DNA of 64,000 nucleotides from Exiguobacterium sp. s124 (GTDB lineage Bacteria; Bacillota; Bacilli; Exiguobacteriales; Exiguobacteriaceae), in contig NZ_JACSKH010000001.1 of assembly GCF_018617485.1 (NCBI RefSeq), positions 620,001 to 684,000 on the forward strand, given 5' to 3'. The notes under the pieces are model-generated. The model was not told the origin of the DNA, ran no database searches, and saw nothing but the letters and a program-made list of their open reading frames with translations. This document shows positions 3,453-48,675 of this stretch, one piece after another; position 1 is the first letter of the stretch, and each line of letters opens with the position of its first letter. The position numbers and the translations under genes were made by a program.

Positions 3453-4856
3453 GTGAAAAATTCAACCGCAGGACTACTCGCTGGCACAACGTTCGTGGCT
3501 GGGGCCGGTGCAGGCCTTGCGACGATGGCGTTTACAGACACATCACTTCCGATTCAAACGAATGCGGAAGGCTGGGATAAAGTCGACCAAGTGCGTGATT
3601 TGATTGAGCAACATTCGTTACAAGACATCTCGGAAGAGGATTTATTGACAGGAGCGCTCGACGGCATGACCGCAGCACTTGATGACCCATACTCGGATTT
3701 CTTGGACGCGGAAGAAACATCGCAATTTACCGACTCGATTGAATCGAGTTTTGAAGGAATCGGCGCAACTTTGGAGAAGAAAGGAGAAGACATCTTAATC
3801 GTCGCTCCGATCAAAGGCGCTCCAGCCGAGGAGGCGGGTCTTCGCCCCGGTGACATCATCACAGCGGTCGACGGGGAGTCGATCGAAGGAATGGATGTAC
3901 AGGAAGCCGTCCAACTCATCCGAGGGGAAAAAGGGACGACCGTCACATTGACGATTCGCCGTGGCAGTCAGACGGCGGACTATGAGATCACGCGTGACAC
4001 GATCCCAATCGAGACGGTGTTCTCAGAAGTGAAGGAGCAAGACGGTAAAAAGATCGGCTATCTGCAAGTGACACAGTTCTCAGAACCGACGGCCGATGAG
4101 TTCCTCGAACAGCTCGAACAGCTCGAGTCAGAGGATATCGATAGCTTGATCATTGATGTGCGTGGGAACCCAGGTGGGCTCTTGCCTGCTGTCATCGAGA
4201 TGTCTGAAGGGTTCGTCCCGACATCAAAACCGGTCGTTCAAATCGAGAATGCGGACGGGGACCGTGACGCTCAAAATGGTCGCGCCCGTGAAGCAAAACC
4301 GTACAATCTTTTCGTCTTGACGGATGAGGGCTCTGCCTCGGCATCTGAGATTTTGACGGGTGCGATGAAAGAAGGGGCAGGCGCAACGATCATCGGAACG
4401 AAAACGTTCGGGAAAGGCGTCGTCCAGACGGCGTTCGATTTAGAGGACGGTAGCAACCTGAAGTTGACGACGAGCAAATGGCTCACGCCAGACGGGAACT
4501 GGATCAATAAAAAAGGAATCGAGCCGGATATTGAAGTGGCTCAACCAGATTACTTTAATGTGACCCGTGTCTTGACAGAGGAAGAGTCACTAAAAATCGG
4601 TGATTACGGCGATGCCGTCTCGAACTTGCATAAAATTTTGACGGGAATCGGCTACGAGCCAGGTGGTCAACCGGGTTACTTCGGGGACACGATGGCAGAT
4701 GCCGTGAAAGCATTCCAGACAGACAATGGTCTCGAGGCTTCAGGGACTGTCGATGAGGAGACCGCTTCGGCGCTCGAGTCGAAGTTGCTCGAGGCGATTC
4801 AAGATGAGGCGAACGATGCCCAATTGAACCGAGCGCTCGAAGAAGCTGCAAAATAA
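3453..4856 (+). CDS. S41 family carboxy-terminal processing protease (CtpA/CtpB-like)
   Basis: Secreted or membrane-anchored serine protease of 467 residues. An N-terminal hydrophobic segment is followed by a PDZ domain (about 85-170, with APAEEAGLRPGD), the S41 catalytic core with the serine in GSASASE and the lysine in GTKTFGKG, and a C-terminal PG_binding_1 domain (about 385-450). GTG 3453 is preferred over ATG 3438 because GAGGGA at 3440-3445 is correctly spaced for it. Position next to a MinJ-like gene matches B. subtilis ctpB, which cleaves SpoIVFA during sporulation. The substrate here is unknown; roles in wall-hydrolase processing are possible. Confidence 0.9.
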   Translation: MKNSTAGLLAGTTFVAGAGAGLATMAFTDTSLPIQTNAEGWDKVDQVRDLIEQHSLQDISEEDLLTGALDGMTAALDDPYSDFLDAEETSQFTDSIESSFEGIGATLEKKGEDILIVAPIKGAPAEEAGLRPGDIITAVDGESIEGMDVQEAVQLIRGEKGTTVTLTIRRGSQTADYEITRDTIPIETVFSEVKEQDGKKIGYLQVTQFSEPTADEFLEQLEQLESEDIDSLIIDVRGNPGGLLPAVIEMSEGFVPTSKPVVQIENADGDRDAQNGRAREAKPYNLFVLTDEGSASASEILTGAMKEGAGATIIGTKTFGKGVVQTAFDLEDGSNLKLTTSKWLTPDGNWINKKGIEPDIEVAQPDYFNVTRVLTEEESLKIGDYGDAVSNLHKILTGIGYEPGGQPGYFGDTMADAVKAFQTDNGLEASGTVDEETASALESKLLEAIQDEANDAQLNRALEEAAK

Positions 4857-4884
4857 CGTTGAATGAAAGAAAGGATTGGACCGC

Positions 4885-6039
4885 GTGGAAGTTGTACGAA
4901 TGAGTGTTACGGCTTTATTGACGTTGTTAAGTAGTCCGCTGTTTTGGGTGACGCTCGTCGCCCTTACATACATATCGATGACACGAGTCAAACGAGAACG
5001 AGCCATGTTTCGTTCGAGACGACGCTCGCCGAAGTCGGAATGGAAGCATTTCATCTGGCCAAGTCTTCTTCTAGCGGTCCTCGCATCAGCCGCGACGATC
5101 GTACTTGAGACGACCATTACGTTTGAGTGGGCCGTCTCGTTCACAGTGCTCTATACGCTCGTAGTGTTGACGATGCATCCGCGATTCTTCAATCCGGTGC
5201 TTCCGCTTCTCGTCTTGTTCGGGGTCGTCATGTTGCGCGATGTCGTCTCTTATGGGGCGCTCAGTGATTGGGTGAGAGAACTCGCTCGAGTCGATTGGAC
5301 GGTATATGCCCTCACGTTCGGGCTCGTCACGCTCGCGGAAGCGATCCTTTTACGCTGGAATGGACCAAAAGAGACTTCCCCGACACTGATCTTATCGAAA
5401 CGTGGTCAGTTCATCGGGGGGCATGTCGTCAAACGGATTTGGTTTTTCCCGCTTGTCGTCTTCTTGCCACCGACGTTCGGTCTCGACTGGCCGATGGTTC
5501 CCATCATTCTTCCGATTCCAATCGGGGTCAGCTTGTTGTCGACCGGCGCATTGCCGGGAACGCTACTTGCACGATTGAGCAATTATCGCGCAGTGCTCGC
5601 ATTGATTGCTCTCGGTCTATTTGGTCTCTCGTATGTATGGGAGATTCCGTATGTCGACTATGCCGTGTTTGCTTTGTTCGTGCTATATGAGCTTGGGCTT
5701 CAGTGGATCAAACGAGAAAATCGTGGCACGACACCTGTCTTTATCAATGGAAATCGCGGGGCGGTCATCGTCGACACGCTTCCGAATTCACCGGGAGAGG
5801 CGATGCAACTCATCCCAGGTGAATCGATTTATAAAGTCAATGGAACGATCATCACGGGAGGGCATAGCTTTTACGAGGCGCTCCAGCAACATAAACCGTA
5901 CATCAAGCTCGAAGTGCTGAATCTGAACGGGGACATCCGTTTCGTTCAGCGTGCGATGTATGAGACCGATCCACACGAACTCGGTATCTTGTTCGTCGGG
6001 GAGCCGACGAGTCCACGTGTCCGCCTCCGTAAATTGTAA
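4885..6039 (+). CDS. minJ: MinJ-like polytopic membrane protein with C-terminal PDZ domain
   Basis: About 384 residues: roughly the first 270 form multiple membrane segments, followed by a PDZ-like domain (NRGAVIVDTLPNSPGEAM, PGESIYKVNG). In B. subtilis the equivalent position after ctpB holds minJ, which links DivIVA to MinD and places the division septum. The assignment rests on synteny plus architecture, not on conserved catalytic residues. The frame is open from TTG 4876, but AAGGA at 4871-4875 fits GTG 4885. It ends in a terminator. Confidence 0.72.
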   Translation: MEVVRMSVTALLTLLSSPLFWVTLVALTYISMTRVKRERAMFRSRRRSPKSEWKHFIWPSLLLAVLASAATIVLETTITFEWAVSFTVLYTLVVLTMHPRFFNPVLPLLVLFGVVMLRDVVSYGALSDWVRELARVDWTVYALTFGLVTLAEAILLRWNGPKETSPTLILSKRGQFIGGHVVKRIWFFPLVVFLPPTFGLDWPMVPIILPIPIGVSLLSTGALPGTLLARLSNYRAVLALIALGLFGLSYVWEIPYVDYAVFALFVLYELGLQWIKRENRGTTPVFINGNRGAVIVDTLPNSPGEAMQLIPGESIYKVNGTIITGGHSFYEALQQHKPYIKLEVLNLNGDIRFVQRAMYETDPHELGILFVGEPTSPRVRLRKL

Positions 6040-7650: not shown

Positions 7651-8358
7651 TTAAGGGACGAGAATGCCATACACGAGAGCGGCAATGATAGCGCCGATAA
7701 TCGGACCAACGACTGGAATCCATGAATAGCCCCAGTCAGAAGAACCTTTTCCTTTAATCGGAAGGACAGCGTGGGCGATACGTGGCCCAAGGTCACGCGC
7801 TGGGTTGATCGCATATCCCGTCGTACCACCTAGTGAGAGACCGATTGAGACAATCAAGAAACCGACGATGAGCGGGTTAAGTCCATCTGCGAATGTGTTT
7901 GCCCCGAATGACAACAATGCAAAGACAAGGACGAATGTTCCGATAATCTCACCAATCAAGTTAGATGGTGTGTTGCGAATACCTGGTGCAGTAGAGAACG
8001 TTGCGAGTTTCAAACCTGGATCCTCCGTCGCATCGTAATGCGGCTTGTAGTGGACATACACCAAACATGCCCCAATGAACGCTCCGATAAACTGAGCAAG
8101 GATGTAGAGTGGGACATCGGCCCATGGGAATTCTCCTGCTGTCGCGAGACCAATCGTGACGGCAGGGTTGATGTGTGCGCCTCCGTAAATACCGGCTGCG
8201 TAGACCCCGACCATAACCGCGAGACCCCAACCCATTGTGATAACAATCCAGCCAGAGTTTTCCGCTTTGGAATGGCGGAGGACGACGCCGGCGACGACAC
8301 CGTTACCGAGCAGAATCAATAGCATCGTACCGATAATTTCACTTACAAATGCTGACAT
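7651..8358 (-). CDS. glpF: Glycerol uptake facilitator (aquaporin family)
   Basis: Membrane channel of 235 residues with six membrane segments. Two NPA-type signatures are present: NPAVTIGLA in the first half and NPARDLGPR in the second; the latter's D after NPAR is typical of glycerol facilitators. Start ATG 8358 is chosen over the upstream in-frame ATG 8385 because GGGGAG lies 7-8 bases before it and the protein then begins MSAFVSEIIGT, as in the family. First gene of glpF-glpK. Confidence 0.96.
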   Translation of the reverse strand: MSAFVSEIIGTMLLILLGNGVVAGVVLRHSKAENSGWIVITMGWGLAVMVGVYAAGIYGGAHINPAVTIGLATAGEFPWADVPLYILAQFIGAFIGACLVYVHYKPHYDATEDPGLKLATFSTAPGIRNTPSNLIGEIIGTFVLVFALLSFGANTFADGLNPLIVGFLIVSIGLSLGGTTGYAINPARDLGPRIAHAVLPIKGKGSSDWGYSWIPVVGPIIGAIIAALVYGILVP

Positions 8359-41117: not shown

Positions 41118-41171
41118 CGGGGAAGGGCTCGTCCCTTCCTCCGTATCTTGTAGATAAAGGACTGAATGTGT

Positions 41172-41642
41172 ATGGCCAAGAAGAAAGATTCGAACGCACT
41201 CGCCCAAAACCGCAAGGCGTCCTTCGATTACGCGATCGAGGATACGATTGAGGCGGGCATGGTGCTCACAGGGACGGAGATCAAGTCGGTCCGTCAATCG
41301 AAGATTAACATCGCGGATGCGTACGTCCGATTCGACGGGGGCGAGGCGACGCTTCACAACTGTCATATCAGCCCGTTCGACCAGGGGAACCGCTTCAACC
41401 ATGAACCACTCCGCGTCCGAAAGCTATTGTTGCATAAGAAGCAAATCAATCAGCTCATCGGGGCGTCAGGGCGTGACGGCTACACGATCATCCCGCTCAA
41501 AGTGTATATCAAGAACGGGTTTGCCAAGTGCCTGCTCGGTGTCGGAAAAGGGAAGAAGAAGTACGACAAACGTGAGGACTTGAAGAAGAAAGACGCGAAG
41601 CGTGACGTCGACCGTGCGATGCGCGATCGGCAAAAATACTGA
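41172..41642 (+). CDS. smpB: SsrA-binding protein SmpB
   Basis: A 156-residue tmRNA partner required for trans-translation. The family start [19 protein letters not shown] and [10 protein letters not shown] are clear, and the C-terminal basic tail ends in [16 protein letters not shown] 41172 is preferred to in-frame ATG 41166. The ssrA promoter overlaps the smpB stop codon. Confidence 0.97.
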
Positions 41643-41691: not shown

Positions 41692-42044
41692 GGGGACGTT
41701 ATGGATTCGACGGGGGTAGGTCGGTCGTATGTGGCGTGTCGAGGGGTCGGCCTCGTTAAAACGCAAACGCCTATAACTGGCAAAACTAACACACAACTCG
41801 CAGCAGCCTAAGTGCCCTGCGGATCCTGACATCCATCGCTTGTGTGGATGACTTTCAGGGTCTCAAACTAAGCAAGCTACGCTTCAACCTCGCCGTCTGA
41901 GGGCGCGAAGAAGAGATGAAACAGACTGGATGCGACAACGCCTGTTTATCGGCAGTGTCACATCGAGATTCAATAGATAAACTACACACGTAGAAGCATA
42001 CGTTACGATGCCTTCGGACGCGGGTTCGACTCCCGCCGTCTCCA
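41692..42044 (+). ncRNA. ssrA: tmRNA (10Sa RNA)
   Basis: 353 bases rescuing stalled ribosomes with SmpB. The 5' end GGGGACG pairs with CGTCTCC at the 3' end, and the tRNA-like T arm has GGGTTCGACTCCC. The tag reading frame begins at GGC 41779 after the conserved ATAACT and ends at TAA 41809-41811. It encodes GKTNTQLAAA, to which the charged alanine is added first. The 3' CCA is not encoded (TCCATTTT follows), unlike B. subtilis ssrA. The gene is a classic integration site, and an AT-rich island lies just beyond. Confidence 0.97.
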
Positions 42045-42086
42045 TTTTGAAGCAGTCTGTAACGACTGCGATCAATGATTTTCATG

Positions 42087-42129
42087 AAGACCTTCTAATT
42101 TCATTGAGATTAGAGGGTCTTTGCTTTTG
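42087..42129 (+). terminator. Terminator of ssrA
   Basis: AAGACCTTCTAAT pairs with ATTAGAGGGTCTT (one G-U), followed by a T-rich stretch. A smaller hairpin GCAGTC/GACTGC lies at 42052-42069. Confidence 0.8.
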
Positions 42130-42166
42130 ATTGAGGATCAGCCATGAAGAAAGGAAGGTGAAACGC

Positions 42167-42310
42167 ATGGGGAAATATCAATTAGACACGAGAAGCAAAG
42201 TAGCTGCGGCGAAGTACCAAGACGGGAAAAAGCCGACTGTCTCGAACAAGAAGGAACGATTGAACCAGCTTCGTGAAGCGTATTTGCAGAAGCGACAAGA
42301 GAAGAAGTGA
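42167..42310 (+). CDS. 47-residue basic protein of unknown function
   Basis: An open frame starting MGKYQLDTRSKVAAAKYQDG and ending LREAYLQKRQEKK, behind AAGGAAGGTG. It is rich in Lys/Arg with no hydrophobic segment, so it is probably cytoplasmic and possibly RNA- or DNA-associated. Codon use resembles the host, not the AT-rich island that follows. No family recognised. Confidence 0.6.
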   Translation: MGKYQLDTRSKVAAAKYQDGKKPTVSNKKERLNQLREAYLQKRQEKK

Positions 42311-42379
42311 TCTGACGAAGGATAATGAGTTTTAATGGCTTTCAAATATAGTGTTGAATAAATTGAACTCAAAATAGGG

Positions 42380-42416
42380 TCACCGTGCATATTTTAATGC
42401 ATAGGTGATTTTTTAT
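42380..42416 (+). terminator. Terminator at the left edge of the island
   Basis: TCACC and GGTGA enclose a second stem TGCAT/ATGCA, followed by six T. The remaining gap to 42648 is very AT-rich and holds no gene. Confidence 0.75.
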
Positions 42417-42548
42417 TTCTTCTTTTAACAAACGTATTTAGTTTGATTCATGCTTATATCGATTAATTTGCATTTATAATTGTGAATTCTATCACAACAT
42501 AAAAATTTTAAAATAATGAATTTAATTAGTCTGTCGAAAAATTAATAG

Positions 42549-42554
42549 TATAAT
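42549..42554 (+). promoter_or_regulatory. Possible -10 of the hamAB operon
   Basis: TATAAT about 95 bases before the first hamA codon; no matching -35 is visible, and in such AT-rich DNA chance matches are common. Confidence 0.25.
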
Positions 42555-42648
42555 TTACAATGATAAAATTTGTTAAAAATAGCATCATTAAATTAATTTA
42601 ATTCTATATATGTTAAAATTAAGGGAGTTAAAAGCCAATTGAGAGTAG

Positions 42649-43578
42649 GTGAATGAAATTATTACATTTTCTTCTTTATTTAACGATATGATAGGAAATT
42701 TAGTTAAAGATGTATTGATTTTTTCTTATAGTCATTCAAGTGAAGAAAAATATGAAATTCATCCGCATTATCATAGCTTTGAGGATGAAACACCATTTGA
42801 GATAGGGGTTATTTTAAGAAAACATATAATATTTTCAAGTTACTCTGAGAGAGAAATTATAAAAAAATATAATTTAGGGCAGATGCAAAATTTAGAAAAA
42901 TTGGTTCAGTGGACAAAAAAAAATAGACTTCCTGATAGAAGTGGAGCTCAAAATGGGTTATATAGTGAAGTTTTATTAGATTTAATTTTAAACTTATTGT
43001 ATCCAAATATTTATAAAGGATGTATAAGAACTATACATAGGCAAAGATCTGATAACAATGAGATAAAAGGTTTTGATTCCGTACATGTTCTTATTGATGA
43101 GTATGGTAAATCTTATATGTTGTTAGGTCAAGCTAAACTAGGGCAAAAAAGATATTGTGTAGACAGTATAAAAAAGGACTTAGAAAAAGTCGGATTTTTA
43201 TATACATATGACGAGCTATGTTTTATAGCTGATAAAGTTGATTCATTAGAGGATTCTGTAAAAGAATTGTTAGAAGGATTGAATAATTTATTTTTTGAAA
43301 TGGAAGGAAACGATCCACAGATAAAAAAAGATAATTTAAATGCATATTTAACTGCCAACAATATAATTTTATCAATACCATGTTTAATTGCATATGATTC
43401 TGATGTTTCATATACGTCTAATGAGATAAACAAAATAGAGGAAGAAATAAAATCTGTCATTGAAATTTTAAACTCTAAAGATTATTCGCACGATGGAATT
43501 AATTTTAATATTTCTTTTATTATTTTCCCGATTAGTAACATTCAAAATTTGAGGGAGGGTATGGATAGTGAGTGCTAA
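42649..43578 (+). CDS. hamA: HamA-like DUF1837 nuclease of a Hachiman-type defence system
   Basis: A 309-residue protein that I assign to the DUF1837/HamA family. Glu107 (LYSEVLLDL), the block RQRSDNNEIKGFDSVHVLI with Asp143, and GQAKL with Gln161 and Lys163 together look like a PD-(D/E)xK nuclease site with Q in place of the usual acidic residue. Known Hachiman systems pair such a nuclease with the helicase HamB. The frame starts at GTG 42649 right after a TAG; the ribosome binding site is weak (GAGAG). It overlaps hamB by 11 bases. The coding DNA is far more AT-rich than the flanking genes, which points to horizontal transfer. No signal peptide or membrane segment. Confidence 0.75.
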   Translation: MNEIITFSSLFNDMIGNLVKDVLIFSYSHSSEEKYEIHPHYHSFEDETPFEIGVILRKHIIFSSYSEREIIKKYNLGQMQNLEKLVQWTKKNRLPDRSGAQNGLYSEVLLDLILNLLYPNIYKGCIRTIHRQRSDNNEIKGFDSVHVLIDEYGKSYMLLGQAKLGQKRYCVDSIKKDLEKVGFLYTYDELCFIADKVDSLEDSVKELLEGLNNLFFEMEGNDPQIKKDNLNAYLTANNIILSIPCLIAYDSDVSYTSNEINKIEEEIKSVIEILNSKDYSHDGINFNISFIIFPISNIQNLREGMDSEC

Positions 43579-45868
43579 GCTAGAATTGATAAGAGCTATC
43601 AATAACTATGAAGAAGAATCATTTGAAAAATTTGAAGAATTAAAAAATATTATATGTGAAATCTCAGAAAATGAAAAGTTAAGTAATGATAAATTTTTAA
43701 GAGATTTATTATATATTGCAGCCAATAAAATGAGGATTTTTGGATATAACAGAATGAATAATTTAGATGCTCGGGAGTTAAAATTTTTAAATGAGAATAA
43801 TAAAATAGAAGAAGGAATTTCTGAAGAGTTCTATTTATCTAATGAACTTATTCGATCTTATTACACTTCAGGAAGCAATTCTTTACTAGATTATTATCAA
43901 AAAGCATTTTTGGATAAATTCGATAGTTTGAATAGTAAAAAAATTTTTTTAAGTGCCCCAACATCTTTTGGAAAAACATTTCTATTAAAAGAACTAATAT
44001 TAAAATATAAATACAATAATGTGATCTTAATTTTTCCAACGATTTCGCTTTTGATTGAAAATATTAATGAAATAGAGACCTTCTGTCTCGAGAATACTCT
44101 TGACTATAAAATAGTTAATAGTAAATCTCAGATTATTAGAGATAAAGGGAATATATTTATACTAACTCCAGAAAGAGTTCTTAATCTATTGGCTGAATAT
44201 CCTAAAATAGAAATAGATTTTTTCTTTATGGATGAGATATATAAATTAGATGATTCTTTAAATGAATCACAATCATTGGACAGGGATAGAGATAAAGTAT
44301 TTAGAATTGCTTTATATTTATTATCAAAAAAAGTTGAATCTTATTATTTGGCTGGACCATATATAGATTTAGAAAATTTAGGGGAAGGATTTAAAAAATT
44401 TGTTCGTACAAATGAAATTGAATTATTTCAAGTACACAATGAATTAGTAAAAAAAGAATACTATGAGACGTGGAAAAAAAATATTTATATAAACAAGAAT
44501 AAATTGCAATTAGAGGGTAATAAAGTTGAGAAAACTGTAACACTTTTAAATTATATTAATAAGCACGAGCTAGGACAGACGATAGTTTTTTGTGCTAATC
44601 AAAATCAAATACTTGAAATCGCTAATTCAATTTATAGTAATACTATAATGTCTGGAACGACTAACAGATATAACAGTTTCATAGAACACTTAAATTACAG
44701 ATATGGGTTTTACGATAATGATGTTGAAGTAAGATGGTCTATCCCGGATATGCTCCAAAGAGGGGTTGGTGTTCACCACGGATCTATACCTAGATATATA
44801 CAAACGGAAATTCTAAATTTTTTTAATAAGGGAATAATAGATACAATTATTTCTACTACATCTATAACAGAAGGTGTTAACACTAATGCAAAAAATATTA
44901 TTTTTTTTGGGAACAGCAAAGGTGGGAAACCTTTTAAGTTTTTTGATATAAAAAATATAATAGGCAGAGCAGGGAGATATTACCATCATTTTGTTGGACG
45001 TACTTTTTTTATGGAAAAAAATACATATGATAGATTACAAAGTAATGCGCATGATACTTTAGATTATGTAACGTTTACTGAAAGAGAAATGAATAGTGTA
45101 GATATTGATAATACTGATAAAGAAGATTTGATGGGTAATAACTACGATAGAAAGATTAATAGAGAAATTGAATTATTAAATTTTAATTTTAGTGAAGAGA
45201 TTTTTGTGAAAAACAGATTAATTGATAAATTGAGTCAAGCACAACTGGCAGACTCTCTGATGAAATTAGATAGTTCTGAAATTAATGCTATGAAAGAAAG
45301 ATATAGCTCAATAAAAAAAATTCTGGAGAATGGTATTTTGTACGATATATTCGAAAAAATGTATAACGTAGGAATTATACAAGAACATGAAAAAAATCTA
45401 TATCCAGCAATAGCAGGAACGTATTCCATGAAAGGTTTCAAAGGCTTATTAAGCTATGAAATAAAAAAAATGAAAGATGGAAAATCGGCTTTAGAATGGA
45501 TAGATTATAATAAGTGTTATAAAAAAGCATTTGATAAATTAAAAAAAATAATTGAGTATAGAATACCAAAATTATTAAACGTTTATTTTGAAGTATTTAA
45601 ATATGTTTATGTAGAAAAAGTAAAAGCAGTGGAGTTGAATTTTGATTATATTATAACTTTTTTTGAGACTGGTATATTTTCTGAAATGGGTACATATCTA
45701 TTTGAAAAAGGCTACCCTATAGAAACAATTAAAGAATTAGAAAGAAGCTTTCAAGAAATAATGAATCTTGAAATTGGTGAATTCAGTTTGAATAAAACAA
45801 AGAATCTTGAGAAACTTTCAAAAACCCTAGATACTTATGAACTTTTGTTACTAGACGAATTGATTTAG
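43568..45868 (+). CDS. hamB: HamB-like Ski2-type DExH helicase of a Hachiman-type defence system
   Basis: A 766-residue superfamily 2 helicase. Motif I SAPTSFGKT is at about 129-137, Ia FPTISLL, then TPERVL (200-205), motif II MDEIYK (DEIY, about 222-225), motif IV VFCANQ, GVHHGSIPR (401-409), motif V STTSITEGVN (429-438), and motif VI NIIGRAGR (463-470). The GVHHG and IIGRAGR blocks resemble Ski2/Hel308-type helicases and HamB. The last 270 residues are helical and unassigned. GTG 43568 follows GGGAGGGT and overlaps hamA. The two genes are translationally coupled and are inferred to act as an ATP-driven DNA sensor (HamB) restraining a nuclease (HamA). Confidence 0.82.
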   Translation: MSAKLELIRAINNYEEESFEKFEELKNIICEISENEKLSNDKFLRDLLYIAANKMRIFGYNRMNNLDARELKFLNENNKIEEGISEEFYLSNELIRSYYTSGSNSLLDYYQKAFLDKFDSLNSKKIFLSAPTSFGKTFLLKELILKYKYNNVILIFPTISLLIENINEIETFCLENTLDYKIVNSKSQIIRDKGNIFILTPERVLNLLAEYPKIEIDFFFMDEIYKLDDSLNESQSLDRDRDKVFRIALYLLSKKVESYYLAGPYIDLENLGEGFKKFVRTNEIELFQVHNELVKKEYYETWKKNIYINKNKLQLEGNKVEKTVTLLNYINKHELGQTIVFCANQNQILEIANSIYSNTIMSGTTNRYNSFIEHLNYRYGFYDNDVEVRWSIPDMLQRGVGVHHGSIPRYIQTEILNFFNKGIIDTIISTTSITEGVNTNAKNIIFFGNSKGGKPFKFFDIKNIIGRAGRYYHHFVGRTFFMEKNTYDRLQSNAHDTLDYVTFTEREMNSVDIDNTDKEDLMGNNYDRKINREIELLNFNFSEEIFVKNRLIDKLSQAQLADSLMKLDSSEINAMKERYSSIKKILENGILYDIFEKMYNVGIIQEHEKNLYPAIAGTYSMKGFKGLLSYEIKKMKDGKSALEWIDYNKCYKKAFDKLKKIIEYRIPKLLNVYFEVFKYVYVEKVKAVELNFDYIITFFETGIFSEMGTYLFEKGYPIETIKELERSFQEIMNLEIGEFSLNKTKNLEKLSKTLDTYELLLLDELI

Positions 45869-45905
45869 GGGAGGACAGTTGCTATTTAGTTTTGTTCATT
45901 TTTAT

Positions 45906-46048
45906 AAATCAATCATCGTGATCGTAGACGAGAGAAGCTATTTCGATTAAACGTCAAGAATCATTTAAATGAAGAATATGACTTCATCGCTTTATCTCGC
46001 TCAACGAAAAATGAGGAACACTGATGTGATTTATTTTTATATGATGCC
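45906..46048 (+). pseudogene. Truncated, frameshifted copy of the NAD(P)-binding protein gene found at 47263
   Basis: Reading across frames gives KSIIVIVDERSYF, then HLNEEYDFIALSRSTKN, then CDLFLYDA. These align in order with KTIVIAGASGYIG, QLKEEYDIIALSRSTKN and CDLFSYEA at the start of the intact gene at 47263-48675. The copy has at least one frameshift, a deletion of about 25-40 bases before CDLF, and no catalytic C-terminal part. It lies at the right edge of the hamAB island. A short in-frame tail MSLTNDELNPE before the terminator at 46103 may be another scrap. Confidence 0.72.
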
Positions 46049-46102
46049 ATTCCTAATAAATTCACCAAAATAAATAAAATGAGTTTAACCAACGATGAAC
46101 TG

Positions 46103-46151
46103 AACCCTGAATGATAAACACTTGATAAAAAGTGCGCATTCAGGTTTTTTT
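46103..46151 (+). terminator. Terminator downstream of hamAB
   Basis: AACCCTGAATG pairs with CATTCAGGTT and encloses an inner CACTT/AAGTG stem, followed by seven T. It may end the hamAB transcript. Confidence 0.8.
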
Positions 46152-46205
46152 GTATGCAATCGAATAGATATAATGAATCCATTCATTCATAGGGGGAATG
46201 TATCT

Positions 46206-46324
46206 ATGAGTAACATTATATTCAAAGAACATCAGGTCAGGCTGAGATTCGTGTCGACTATACCGCTAATAACAGAGAACTTCTAGATGACGGTACTGGT
46301 TTAGATTTATCATTTTATCAGTAA
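46206..46324 (+). pseudogene. Frameshifted small gene of unknown function
   Basis: ATG 46206 behind GGGGGAATG opens MSNIIFKE. Restoring one base in an A run would then continue SGQAEIRVDYTANNRELLDDGTGLDLSFYQ to a stop at 46322-46324. The length after correction is about 40 residues. The intact second frame looks protein-like, so this is either a recent pseudogene or a sequencing error. Confidence 0.45.
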
Positions 46325-46350
46325 TCCCACTCTCCAATCGGAAAGTGGGA
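46324..46350. terminator. Bidirectional terminator
   Basis: AATCCCACTCTCC pairs with GGAAAGTGGGATT around AATC. It separates the island scraps from the convergent gene at 46356. Confidence 0.7.
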
Positions 46351-46355
46351 TTTGT

Positions 46356-46856
46356 TCAGTCAAACACTCGACTGATCCAGCGTTTGAAAAAGGGTTGGCC
46401 TGATTGTGTCACGCTATGATTGTCGAGCTCCACCTCTTCGATCGTCTCATTCGGAGACGTCAATTGAATCGTCATCTCGTCACCAAGCCCGGTCGTGACA
46501 CCGCTCTCAAATTGAAGATTTCTTGTCACATACGCGTTTGCGTATAAGAAACCACCTTTTTCATCCACTTGTACCTCCTGAATCGTATAGTGGAATTGCT
46601 CGACCCAATCTCGTTGACCGAGGAGGAGCCGGACGACGTCATCTTCGTGTGACAGTTTCGTTCGCTCGATATTTTCAAGAGGAGTATGCGCTTCAATCGC
46701 TTCTCGCTGCGCTTCTAAGATATTTTTGAAGTGGTGTGTCGCAGCTTCTGTCGTCCATGCAGCGGACCTCGTCTTCGACTCGGTCGCATAATGGAAAAGA
46801 GCAAATCCAATCAAGGCGAATAACGCCATGGCACTTACTCGTTTGAACTGTTTCAT
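46356..46856 (-). CDS. Membrane-anchored extracytoplasmic protein, unknown function
   Basis: A 166-residue protein with one N-terminal hydrophobic segment (VSAMALFALIGFALFHYA) and no lipobox, followed by a soluble domain of helices and strands. No motif is recognised. ATG 46856 follows GGAAGGAGC. Composition is host-like, so it lies outside the AT-rich island. Confidence 0.65.
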   Translation of the reverse strand: MKQFKRVSAMALFALIGFALFHYATESKTRSAAWTTEAATHHFKNILEAQREAIEAHTPLENIERTKLSHEDDVVRLLLGQRDWVEQFHYTIQEVQVDEKGGFLYANAYVTRNLQFESGVTTGLGDEMTIQLTSPNETIEEVELDNHSVTQSGQPFFKRWISRVFD

Positions 46857-46938
46857 TGTCGAGCTCCTTCCATATCAATTCAAGATTGAAGACGTTAAAA
46901 AGGTGTAAATGGATCTCGTTATTACTCTAGAGTGTGAC

Positions 46939-47127
46939 CTATCGATCGGTGATTTGATTCAACCAATTCGCGACCAAGTCCGCGCTGCCATCTTGGAACA
47001 TAAATATGGATACCCCGACCATCACAAGCCCGACTAAAATCAGTCCACCTTGTTTTGCGCTACTTGCAATCCCTCGCACGATGAGGATTATTCCCAATCC
47101 AAGCAAAAGAAAATACCAGAAACCCAT
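46939..47127 (-). CDS. Small membrane protein (62 residues)
   Basis: Two hydrophobic segments (about 3-21 and 28-45) separated by ASSAKQGG, with a polar C-terminus. ATG 47127 has an AAAGGAGGG site eight bases upstream, supporting translation. No family recognised. Confidence 0.65.
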   Translation of the reverse strand: MGFWYFLLLGLGIILIVRGIASSAKQGGLILVGLVMVGVSIFMFQDGSADLVANWLNQITDR

Positions 47128-47262
47128 GAATATCCCTCCTTTTTCTAATTATTCTCATTTTATTACGAATCGAACGGACAGGCTTTACATACTTAGACTG
47201 ATTTATCTTTTTAAAAAGAAGGGTACATTACCTCTATGCGAATAATTAGGGGAGTGACCATT

Positions 47263-48675
47263 ATGCGGAAAACGATTGTTATTGCGGGGGCGAGTGGCTA
47301 TATCGGCTCGAACGTGATGGAGCAACTAAAAGAAGAATACGATATCATCGCGTTGTCGCGATCGACGAAGAATAAAGAAGATGAGGCCCATATCACGTGG
47401 CGTGCCTGTGATTTATTTTCATATGAGGCAACAAAAGAAGCATGTGAGGGAGCGGACTACGCCATGTTCTTGGTCCACTCGATGATTCCGGACGGCGGAT
47501 TGACCCAGGCGACGTTCGAGGACATGGATGCGCTCATCGCCGATAACTTTGCCCGAGCGACGAAGGCGAACGATATCGAGCAAATCGTCTATTTGAGCGG
47601 CATCATTCCAAAACAAGAGAAGACATTGTCGCGTCACTTGAAGAGTCGACTCGAGGTCGAACGTATTCTCGGCGGACAAGGAGTGCCGGTGACAACGATT
47701 CGGGCGGGGCTCATTATCGGTCCGGAAGGTTCGTCGTTCCCGATTTTAGCGAAACTCGTCAAGCGGTTGCCGTCGATGATCTTGCCAAGGTGGACGAAGA
47801 CGGAGACGCATCCGATTGATATCCGTGAAGCCGTTCAGGCGCTCATTTCGGTCGTTGGTGCGGAGTCGCTCTACGACCGGCATATCGACATCGGGGGTCC
47901 CGAAGTGATGACGTATCGGAAGATGATCGAGCAGACGGCGGAGGTCATGGACAAACGTCGCGTCTTGATCGACTTCCCATTCCCGACAATCAAACTGTCG
48001 CGGTTGTGGGTCATGGCGGTCACGGGTGAACCGAAGGCGACCGTCTATCCGCTCGTTGAGAGCATGGGTCATGCGATGGTGGCAGAAGATACGGTTGAAG
48101 GCATCGGACAAGGTGAGATTCCGTTCAAACAGGCGGTCGAACATGCACTTGAAGAAGAGGAAAAACAATCCTCGGGCGATAAGAAGAAAAAGCAGCCGAA
48201 GTCGTATACTGTCCGCTCGATTCAGCGGTTCGGTCTGCCGGAAGAAAAGTCGGCGCTTTGGATGGCGGACACGTACTTTGAATGGCTCGGTCGTTTCATG
48301 TATCCGCTTATCCAGACGACAAAAGAAGACGATGATTGGGAGATCGCGCTTCTCGATCCGTCATTCGTCGCGCTTCATCTATCGCTTGAACAGGAAGCGA
48401 CAGACGATATGGCATCTTTTGCGATTGATGGGGGCAAGTTCGTCAAATTGAGTGAAGAGGACAAGACAGGTCGTCTCGAGTTCAGACGCTTACCAGAATC
48501 GGATGAAGGACTCGTTGCCATCCATGAGTTCGTGCCGGCTCTCCCATGGTGGTTCTATACGAAGACACAGGCGAAAGCCCATCTCGTCGTCATGTGGCTG
48601 TTCGGTCGTCACGTGAAGTTGTTGGCGAAAGACGCGGAAGATGGCGATCAAGTCGTAGAGGCTCCGACGAATTGA
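47263..48675 (+). CDS. NAD(P)-binding atypical SDR (epimerase-like) with C-terminal DUF2867-type domain
   Basis: A 470-residue protein. It starts with the Rossmann motif GASGYIG, typical of YbjT-like atypical short-chain dehydrogenases. The catalytic YxxxK is not evident, so an enzymatic role is unproven. A charged KKKKQPK linker near residue 310 leads to a C-terminal region of about 150 residues ending FVPALPWWFYTKTQAKAHLV, resembling DUF2867. ATG 47263 follows GGGGAGTG; the upstream in-frame ATG 47236 is rejected. A decayed partial copy lies at 45906-46048. Confidence 0.8.
   Translation: MRKTIVIAGASGYIGSNVMEQLKEEYDIIALSRSTKNKEDEAHITWRACDLFSYEATKEACEGADYAMFLVHSMIPDGGLTQATFEDMDALIADNFARATKANDIEQIVYLSGIIPKQEKTLSRHLKSRLEVERILGGQGVPVTTIRAGLIIGPEGSSFPILAKLVKRLPSMILPRWTKTETHPIDIREAVQALISVVGAESLYDRHIDIGGPEVMTYRKMIEQTAEVMDKRRVLIDFPFPTIKLSRLWVMAVTGEPKATVYPLVESMGHAMVAEDTVEGIGQGEIPFKQAVEHALEEEEKQSSGDKKKKQPKSYTVRSIQRFGLPEEKSALWMADTYFEWLGRFMYPLIQTTKEDDDWEIALLDPSFVALHLSLEQEATDDMASFAIDGGKFVKLSEEDKTGRLEFRRLPESDEGLVAIHEFVPALPWWFYTKTQAKAHLVVMWLFGRHVKLLAKDAEDGDQVVEAPTN

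Follow-up and report, generated by a model that had tools for sequence, protein, structure and literature searches.

Hachiman Systems and the Exiguobacterium Pair

Hachiman (HamAB) of Escherichia coli ECOR31 (Protein Data Bank [PDB] 8vx9) joins a DUF1837/HamA nuclease gene to a Ski2-like helicase gene. In the account of Tuck et al., HamB restrains HamA on intact DNA until loading of a free single-stranded end and ATP hydrolysis by HamB switch HamA on, the activated HamA degrades phage and host DNA alike, and the system responds to DNA damage (PMC12278908). The canonical HamA motif is written D-E(X)K in that description (PMC12278908) and D-GEXK in another (PMC12799240). The second described pair to consider is AbpAB (YfjL/YfjK of E. 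coli K-12, prophage CP4-57; PDB 8zue), deposited under a title that calls it a Hachiman defence system from E. coli; the active, Cap4-type nuclease domain of AbpA is described as using Asp45, Gln58, and Lys60, and Q58A or K60A abolishes defence against T4, which then grows normally (PMC10732053). Here we examine a 64,000-nucleotide stretch of an Exiguobacterium genome (the window) and describe in it two adjacent genes, hamA and hamB, which we consider very probably to be a two-gene Hachiman anti-phage system with a HamA acting through E107-D143-Q161-K163. The pair is an ordinary yet divergent Hachiman, of a kind of system already known.

The two overlapping genes that the first-pass annotation had placed here are borne out by the open reading frames (ORFs) at 42649..45868, with hamA first and an 11-bp overlap (Table 1). 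The pair is indeed as AT-rich against its approximately 50% GC host as had been claimed: its G+C content is 0.261 (hamA 26.7%, hamB 25.9%), far beyond the local variation elsewhere in the window (mean 0.508, standard deviation 0.025, minimum 0.436; n = 535 overlapping 3.2-kb segments), and G+C at third codon positions is 0.19, vs. 0.62 to 0.74 in four neighbouring genes. A scan for promoters is uninformative, since it returned 26 sigma-70-like sites with 27.7 expected in shuffles.

HamA and HamB Belong to the Hachiman Families

Membership of the DUF1837-like nuclease family is directly supported by profile searches. Pfam HamA (PF08878) matches residues 55 to 295 of HamA at 47.3 bits (curated cut-off 25; E 3.1e-12), no further Pfam domain reaches its cut-off, ten PADLOC HamA models match (best HamA1, E 2e-15), and profile–profile comparison (hhalign) of the window HamA group with nine other HamAs gives a probability of 99.4 and an E of 1.4e-21 over 242 columns. 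An AlphaFold2 model built from six sequences (predicted local distance difference test score [pLDDT] 75.3, predicted template modelling score [pTM] 0.81) has the predicted PD-(D/E)xK-type fold, with E107 in helix 103–117, strand 144–149 following D143, and strand 155–165 holding Q161 and K163. The sole Foldseek match of this model at E ≤ 0.001 is AbpA (8zue_A, E 1.1e-4).

The 766-amino-acid (aa) partner matches the PADLOC HamB models (best HamB1, E 4.4e-109) and Pfam DEAD, ResIII, and Helicase_C; its NCBIfam matches, Hel308 among them, all lie below cut-off. By sequence (phmmer), its best PDB match is AbpB (8zue_B, 1.7e-34), with HamB (8vx9_B) weaker at 1.8e-9. The AlphaFold2 model from seven sequences (pLDDT 81.5, pTM 0.82) again finds 8zue_B (4.8e-18) and also 8vxa_A (3.8e-16), and Pol theta helicase, AbpB, HamB, and Hel308 rank high among its Foldseek matches, which points to a Ski2-like fold. 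Both proteins thus match the profiles, and both single-protein models match their AbpAB counterparts, upholding the Hachiman pairing that had been proposed.

Six helicase motifs had been read in order; the Walker A, DE, and GRAGR motifs are intact, and I, II, V, and VI do stand in order, with FPTISLL (from residue 156) and VFCAN (from residue 340) as candidates for Ia and IV. The earlier label of a Ski2-like DExH helicase holds in its first part and is inexact in its second, because motif II reads DEIY and is DE[FIMV]YK in all 13 AbpB-type helicases compared; by its sequence, HamB is classed as a short AbpB-type helicase.

Comparison with Described Systems

The window pair resembles ECOR31 Hachiman in combining the two gene families and in the fold match of the helicase, and it differs in that HamB has 766 aa vs. 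1174, motif II is DEIY vs. DEGH, and HamA carries D-QxK vs. D-ExK and is too distant in sequence for a significant PDB match (the HamA at locus L083 has no PDB match by sequence either). The closest solved structure is that of AbpAB, for HamA by fold and for HamB by sequence, and the short helicase with a DE[F/I]YK motif II is shared with it. Unlike AbpA, which at 538 aa joins an N-terminal Cap4-like nuclease to a HamA domain whose four-residue site is degenerate (R/E/F/E), the window HamA consists of a stand-alone HamA domain with E/D/Q/K and no such fusion. The two pairs are also alike in place: ours lies beyond smpB, and CP4-57 begins just beyond smpB in E. coli, where ssrA presumably lies in the gap between them. 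In the HamB model, N-terminal helices 2–55 precede the RecA core, where ECOR31 HamB is described as having its HamA-binding bundle (PMC12278908).

Unlike HamMAB, which has a trypsin domain fused to HamA and an upstream MBL nuclease, the window HamA has no trypsin domain, and the largest ORF wholly between the end of ssrA and hamA has 70 aa. Two small ORFs beside the pair, 42178–42390 (−) and 45961–46182 (−), were rejected as a third system gene and are taken as spurious, because they have no PADLOC or NCBIfam match and no significant Pfam match.

The nearest counterparts are the HamAB pairs of an Erysipelotrichales metagenome-assembled genome (MAG; L053), a Lachnospiraceae MAG (L054), and two IMG/VR contigs (L071 and L072), whose HamAs are 29 to 44% and HamBs 35 to 46% identical to those of the window, with the same D-GQxK site. 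The order hamA–hamB is common to these four and to L074. Their neighbours differ from those in the window: an AriA/PtuA-like ATPase at L053, type I restriction-modification genes at L072, and, as read from sequence, recombinase-like ORFs at L071.

A Conserved Glutamine in the HamA Active Site

The E...D...QxK arrangement noted earlier is present as E107, D143, Q161, and K163, of which E107, D143, and K163 are invariant across the six-sequence HamA alignment; the departure from the canonical GExK had been left out of the first-pass annotation, as had the position of the island at ssrA. Among 36 aligned HamAs, the window's included, D is paired with ExK in 26 and with QxK in five (the window, L053, L054, L071, and L072); the remaining five (AbpA, L066, L067, L086, and L087) are degenerate. 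The five of 36 is not a frequency, because four of the QxK members were fetched for their likeness to the window's own proteins, and in surveys of 398 genomes of the class and 398 of the phylum only the window's has Q among the matched HamAs. In the HamA tree, the five QxK proteins form one side of a branch (support 100/98); in the HamB tree the matching five do not, because L073, from a contig that does not extend to its HamA, is placed within the group.

The QxK site is conservative yet non-canonical relative to D-GExK, and, since D-QxK is functional in the Cap4-type domain of AbpA, we read the window site as a probable active variant. The alternative that survives best, though unlikely, is a Hachiman pair with a dead nuclease, in which HamA would do no more than oligomerise or dock, in the manner of AbpA and of the protease–HamA fusions, where another effector acts. 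Replacement of the ExK glutamate would fit this, as would the existence of degenerate HamA domains in five of the 36, AbpA and the L066 trypsin fusion included. All five QxK members, however, keep E107, D143, and K163. Of the five degenerate HamAs, by contrast, four lack both the K and any E or Q at the second residue before it, and L066 lacks E107 and D143. There is also no sign of another effector, either fused to HamA, whose 309 aa form one domain, or encoded nearby, where neither of the small island ORFs has a PADLOC, NCBIfam, or significant Pfam match. The functional D-QxK site in the other domain of AbpA likewise speaks for an active window HamA.

The glutamine variant, conserved in the QxK group, lies outside the motif descriptions D-E(X)K and D-GEXK as given in the published accounts, and a literature search, with supplementary figures outside its scope, found no paper pairing a Hachiman HamA with QXK. 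One tentative reading, which we hold to be possible but doubtful, is that the D-GQxK HamAs with their AbpB-type helicases are a distinct Hachiman subtype between canonical HamAB and AbpAB, with a minimal single-domain nuclease and an altered metal site; if so, their metal requirement or the specificity of their cleavage may be different. On the same tentative footing, the HamA domain of AbpAB might have died and a Cap4-type D-QxK nuclease taken over.

Among the degenerate HamAs, L067, L086, and L087 form a supported group, in which L067 and L087 measure ~490 to 500 aa; at E ≤ 0.001, HamA is the sole Pfam domain of L067. At L066 (862–2343, genome G117), a trypsin–HamA fusion has a degenerate site with S/N at the E107/D143 positions and resembles the protease–HamA fusions described in PMC12799240.

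The Pair Lies in a Variable Interval Downstream of ssrA

The smpB–ssrA stretch is present in all 18 other genomes of the genus searched, 17 of which have a readable site (the contigs of G009 end inside the interval). DNA after ssrA, the transfer-messenger RNA (tmRNA) gene, matches unbroken to 42306–42428 in 15 of the 17, the exceptions being L044, where the match resumes beyond an insert, and L050, where it ends at 42046; as the next landmark, all 17 share the SDR-like gene at 47236 or a segment just ahead of it. Between these anchors (42045–47235 in the window; L033 to L050 in relatives), cargo and length differ, from 311 bp (L040, in G016) to ~12 kb (L044). Two cargo ORFs recur in several species, one of ~200 aa (starting MSKKST) and one of ~324 aa (with an HNH domain in L038); others occur once.

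We ran PADLOC on 30 of the 83 listed ORFs of at least 80 aa, picked by size and position, covering in part each of 13 of the 17 sites (all except those of G005, G010, G014, and G016, one of which is nearly empty). Defence-type ORFs at E ≤ 1e-20 occur at nine of the 13 (Table 1), and weaker matches at the other four: RmrA at L033 (1.1e-13), a PtuB-type HNH at L034 (3.2e-8), Hp1 at L036 (2.9e-6), and CARF at L044 (3.9e-4). We call the interval a variable, defence-rich site, a qualitative label based on 30 of the 83 ORFs. Horizontal acquisition probably brought the pair into this interval. In the genus, the interval is worth searching for defence genes, in parallel to the tmRNA hotspot described for E. 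coli (PMC10121019) and to AbpAB in CP4-57.

In G013, an ~8.6-kb insert (L044, 902–9484) is flanked by perfect 22-bp repeats of the ssrA 3′ end and holds two ORFs with phage-integrase domains (997–2064 and 4431–5000), the rest being mostly unassigned cargo. Apart from G013, seven of the 18 relatives have a partial second ssrA 3′ end downstream. In the window, 45911–46021 is probably, to judge from its similarity, a scar or duplicate of the start of the SDR-like gene, and possibly a duplication scar of earlier insertions.

Table 1. Features of the window around hamAB and defence-type genes at the same site in relatives
Feature	Coordinates	Strand	Basis
smpB (presumed name), chromosomal left flank	41166..41642	+	adjoins tmRNA gene
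ssrA (tmRNA), tag GKTNTQLAAA, left anchor of variable interval	41692..42044	+	prediction
47-aa ORF after ssrA	42167..42310	+	ORF list, relatives' matching DNA
AT-rich inserted segment (approximate bounds)	42421..46240	.	stop and resumption of match in some relatives' DNA
hamA, DUF1837/HamA PD-(D/E)xK-type nuclease (predicted fold), 309 aa, single domain, GTG start	42649..43578	+	ORF list, PADLOC, Pfam, Foldseek, hhalign
HamA E107, helix, motif GxxxE	42967..42969	+	alignments, predicted structure
HamA D143, motif EIKGFD	43075..43077	+	alignments
HamA Q161-A-K163, replacing canonical GExK	43129..43137	+	alignments; canonical motif from PMC12799240, PMC12278908
hamB, short AbpB-type Ski2/Hel308-like superfamily 2 (SF2) helicase, 766 aa, GTG start	43568..45868	+	ORF list, PADLOC, PDB phmmer, alignment, Foldseek
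HamB motif I (Walker A) SAPTSFGKT, residues 129–137	43952..43978	+	alignment
HamB motif II DEIY, residues 222–225	44231..44242	+	alignment
HamB motif V region TTSITEGVN, residues 430–438	44855..44881	+	alignment
HamB motif VI IGRAGRY, residues 465–471	44960..44980	+	alignment
Short sequence like start of downstream SDR-like gene	45911..46021	+	75–78% identity to several relatives' SDR-gene starts
SDR-like gene (name read from sequence), conserved right anchor	47236..48675	+	ORF list, relatives' matching DNA
L035 site: Gabija GajA+GajB			PADLOC
L037 site: PDC-M01 A and B			PADLOC
L039 site: GajA and shortened GajB-like ORF, beside two transposase-like ORFs			GajA, PADLOC; GajB and transposase readings, sequence
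L041 site: NsnB/PDC-M55A			PADLOC
L042 site: ATPase-Toprim and reverse transcriptase of retron I-B			PADLOC
L046 site: PDC-M46 A and B			PADLOC
L047 site: OLD and ThsB			PADLOC
L048 site: Tmn			PADLOC
L050 site: PDC-S59 and PDC-S15			PADLOC

Proposed Mechanism and Remaining Alternatives

Because of the account of Tuck et al. (PMC12278908), we expect the same mechanism for the window pair. By homology, HamB would bind HamA and keep it inactive while patrolling DNA. The trigger would be a free 3′ single-stranded end, produced by phage replication or DNA damage and loaded by HamB, whose ATP hydrolysis would then switch HamA on. HamA, through E107-D143-Q161-K163 in the predicted PD-(D/E)xK fold, would cut DNA indiscriminately, so that infection and cell would end together.

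Several results weigh against this assignment. The PADLOC score of HamA is far under that of a typical member (2e-15 vs. 1.8e-113 for the HamA of G010), its NCBIfam search gave no match and its PDB sequence search nothing significant, and its group found no hhalign match in the C-terminal 250 aa of AbpA (probability 0.3). In Foldseek, the fit of the HamA model to AbpA is modest (query template modelling score 0.46), canonical HamA (8vx9_A) is not among the best 50 matches listed, and the canonical catalytic E is Q161, D and K being kept. The window site has no second ssrA end and, between ssrA and 46300, no ORF larger than 110 aa besides the pair (that of 110 aa runs antisense within hamA), so that no integrase is evident. 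An att-bounded integrated element is unsupported for the window on these same two grounds, with the perfect 22-bp repeat confined to L044 of G013.

That the pair is a decayed remnant, non-functional in this strain, is very unlikely; the flanking debris (the SDR-like fragment at 45911–46021) and the lack of a recognisable mobile element would agree with decay, and against it both ORFs are full length relative to relatives, free of internal stops, and conserved in their motifs, and a GGGAGGG that by eye is ribosome-binding-like precedes hamB. Least credible of all is a housekeeping DNA-repair helicase–nuclease pair, suggested by the likeness of the helicase fold to Hel308 and Pol theta helicase and by the described response of Hachiman itself to DNA damage (PMC12278908), since PF08878 occurs at the ssrA site in none of the 18 other genomes of the genus, the composition of hamAB is foreign, and relatives carry other defence-type genes at this site.

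Distribution and Related Observations

As a Hachiman, the pair adds a divergent member for Exiguobacterium and is useful for annotation and for the choice of a compact Hachiman, with no new kind of system; two of its features deserve note, the conserved HamA glutamine and the defence-rich interval downstream of ssrA. A literature search found no paper on Hachiman in Exiguobacterium, and the words Hachiman, ssrA, and tmRNA are absent from the main text of a 2026 Exiguobacterium genome survey (PMC13233415).

PF08878 was found in three of the 61 genomes of the relatives set, the window's own included. In the same genus, G010 carries a different, unrelated Hachiman lineage elsewhere in its genome (L003/L052, G010:C9), scoring 1.8e-113 with PDLC00161 and 2.4e-197 with PDLC00188; its HamB belongs to the long PDLC00188 type. 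More widely, HamA model PDLC00171 matches 15 of 398 class genomes, PF08878 matches 14 of 398 phylum genomes (13 over cut-off), and the profile of the window HamB group at E ≤ 1e-40 finds five of the 398 phylum genomes, including its own. A plasmid search with HamA gave no match; a phage search with HamB gave three, each over 47 to 48% of the protein at 26 to 37% identity. Positions 8268–10438 of L053, immediately downstream of this closest relative's hamAB, hold the AriA/PtuA-like ATPase gene and a 276-aa gene with weak PDC-M38B similarity, and the two perhaps form a second defence pair.

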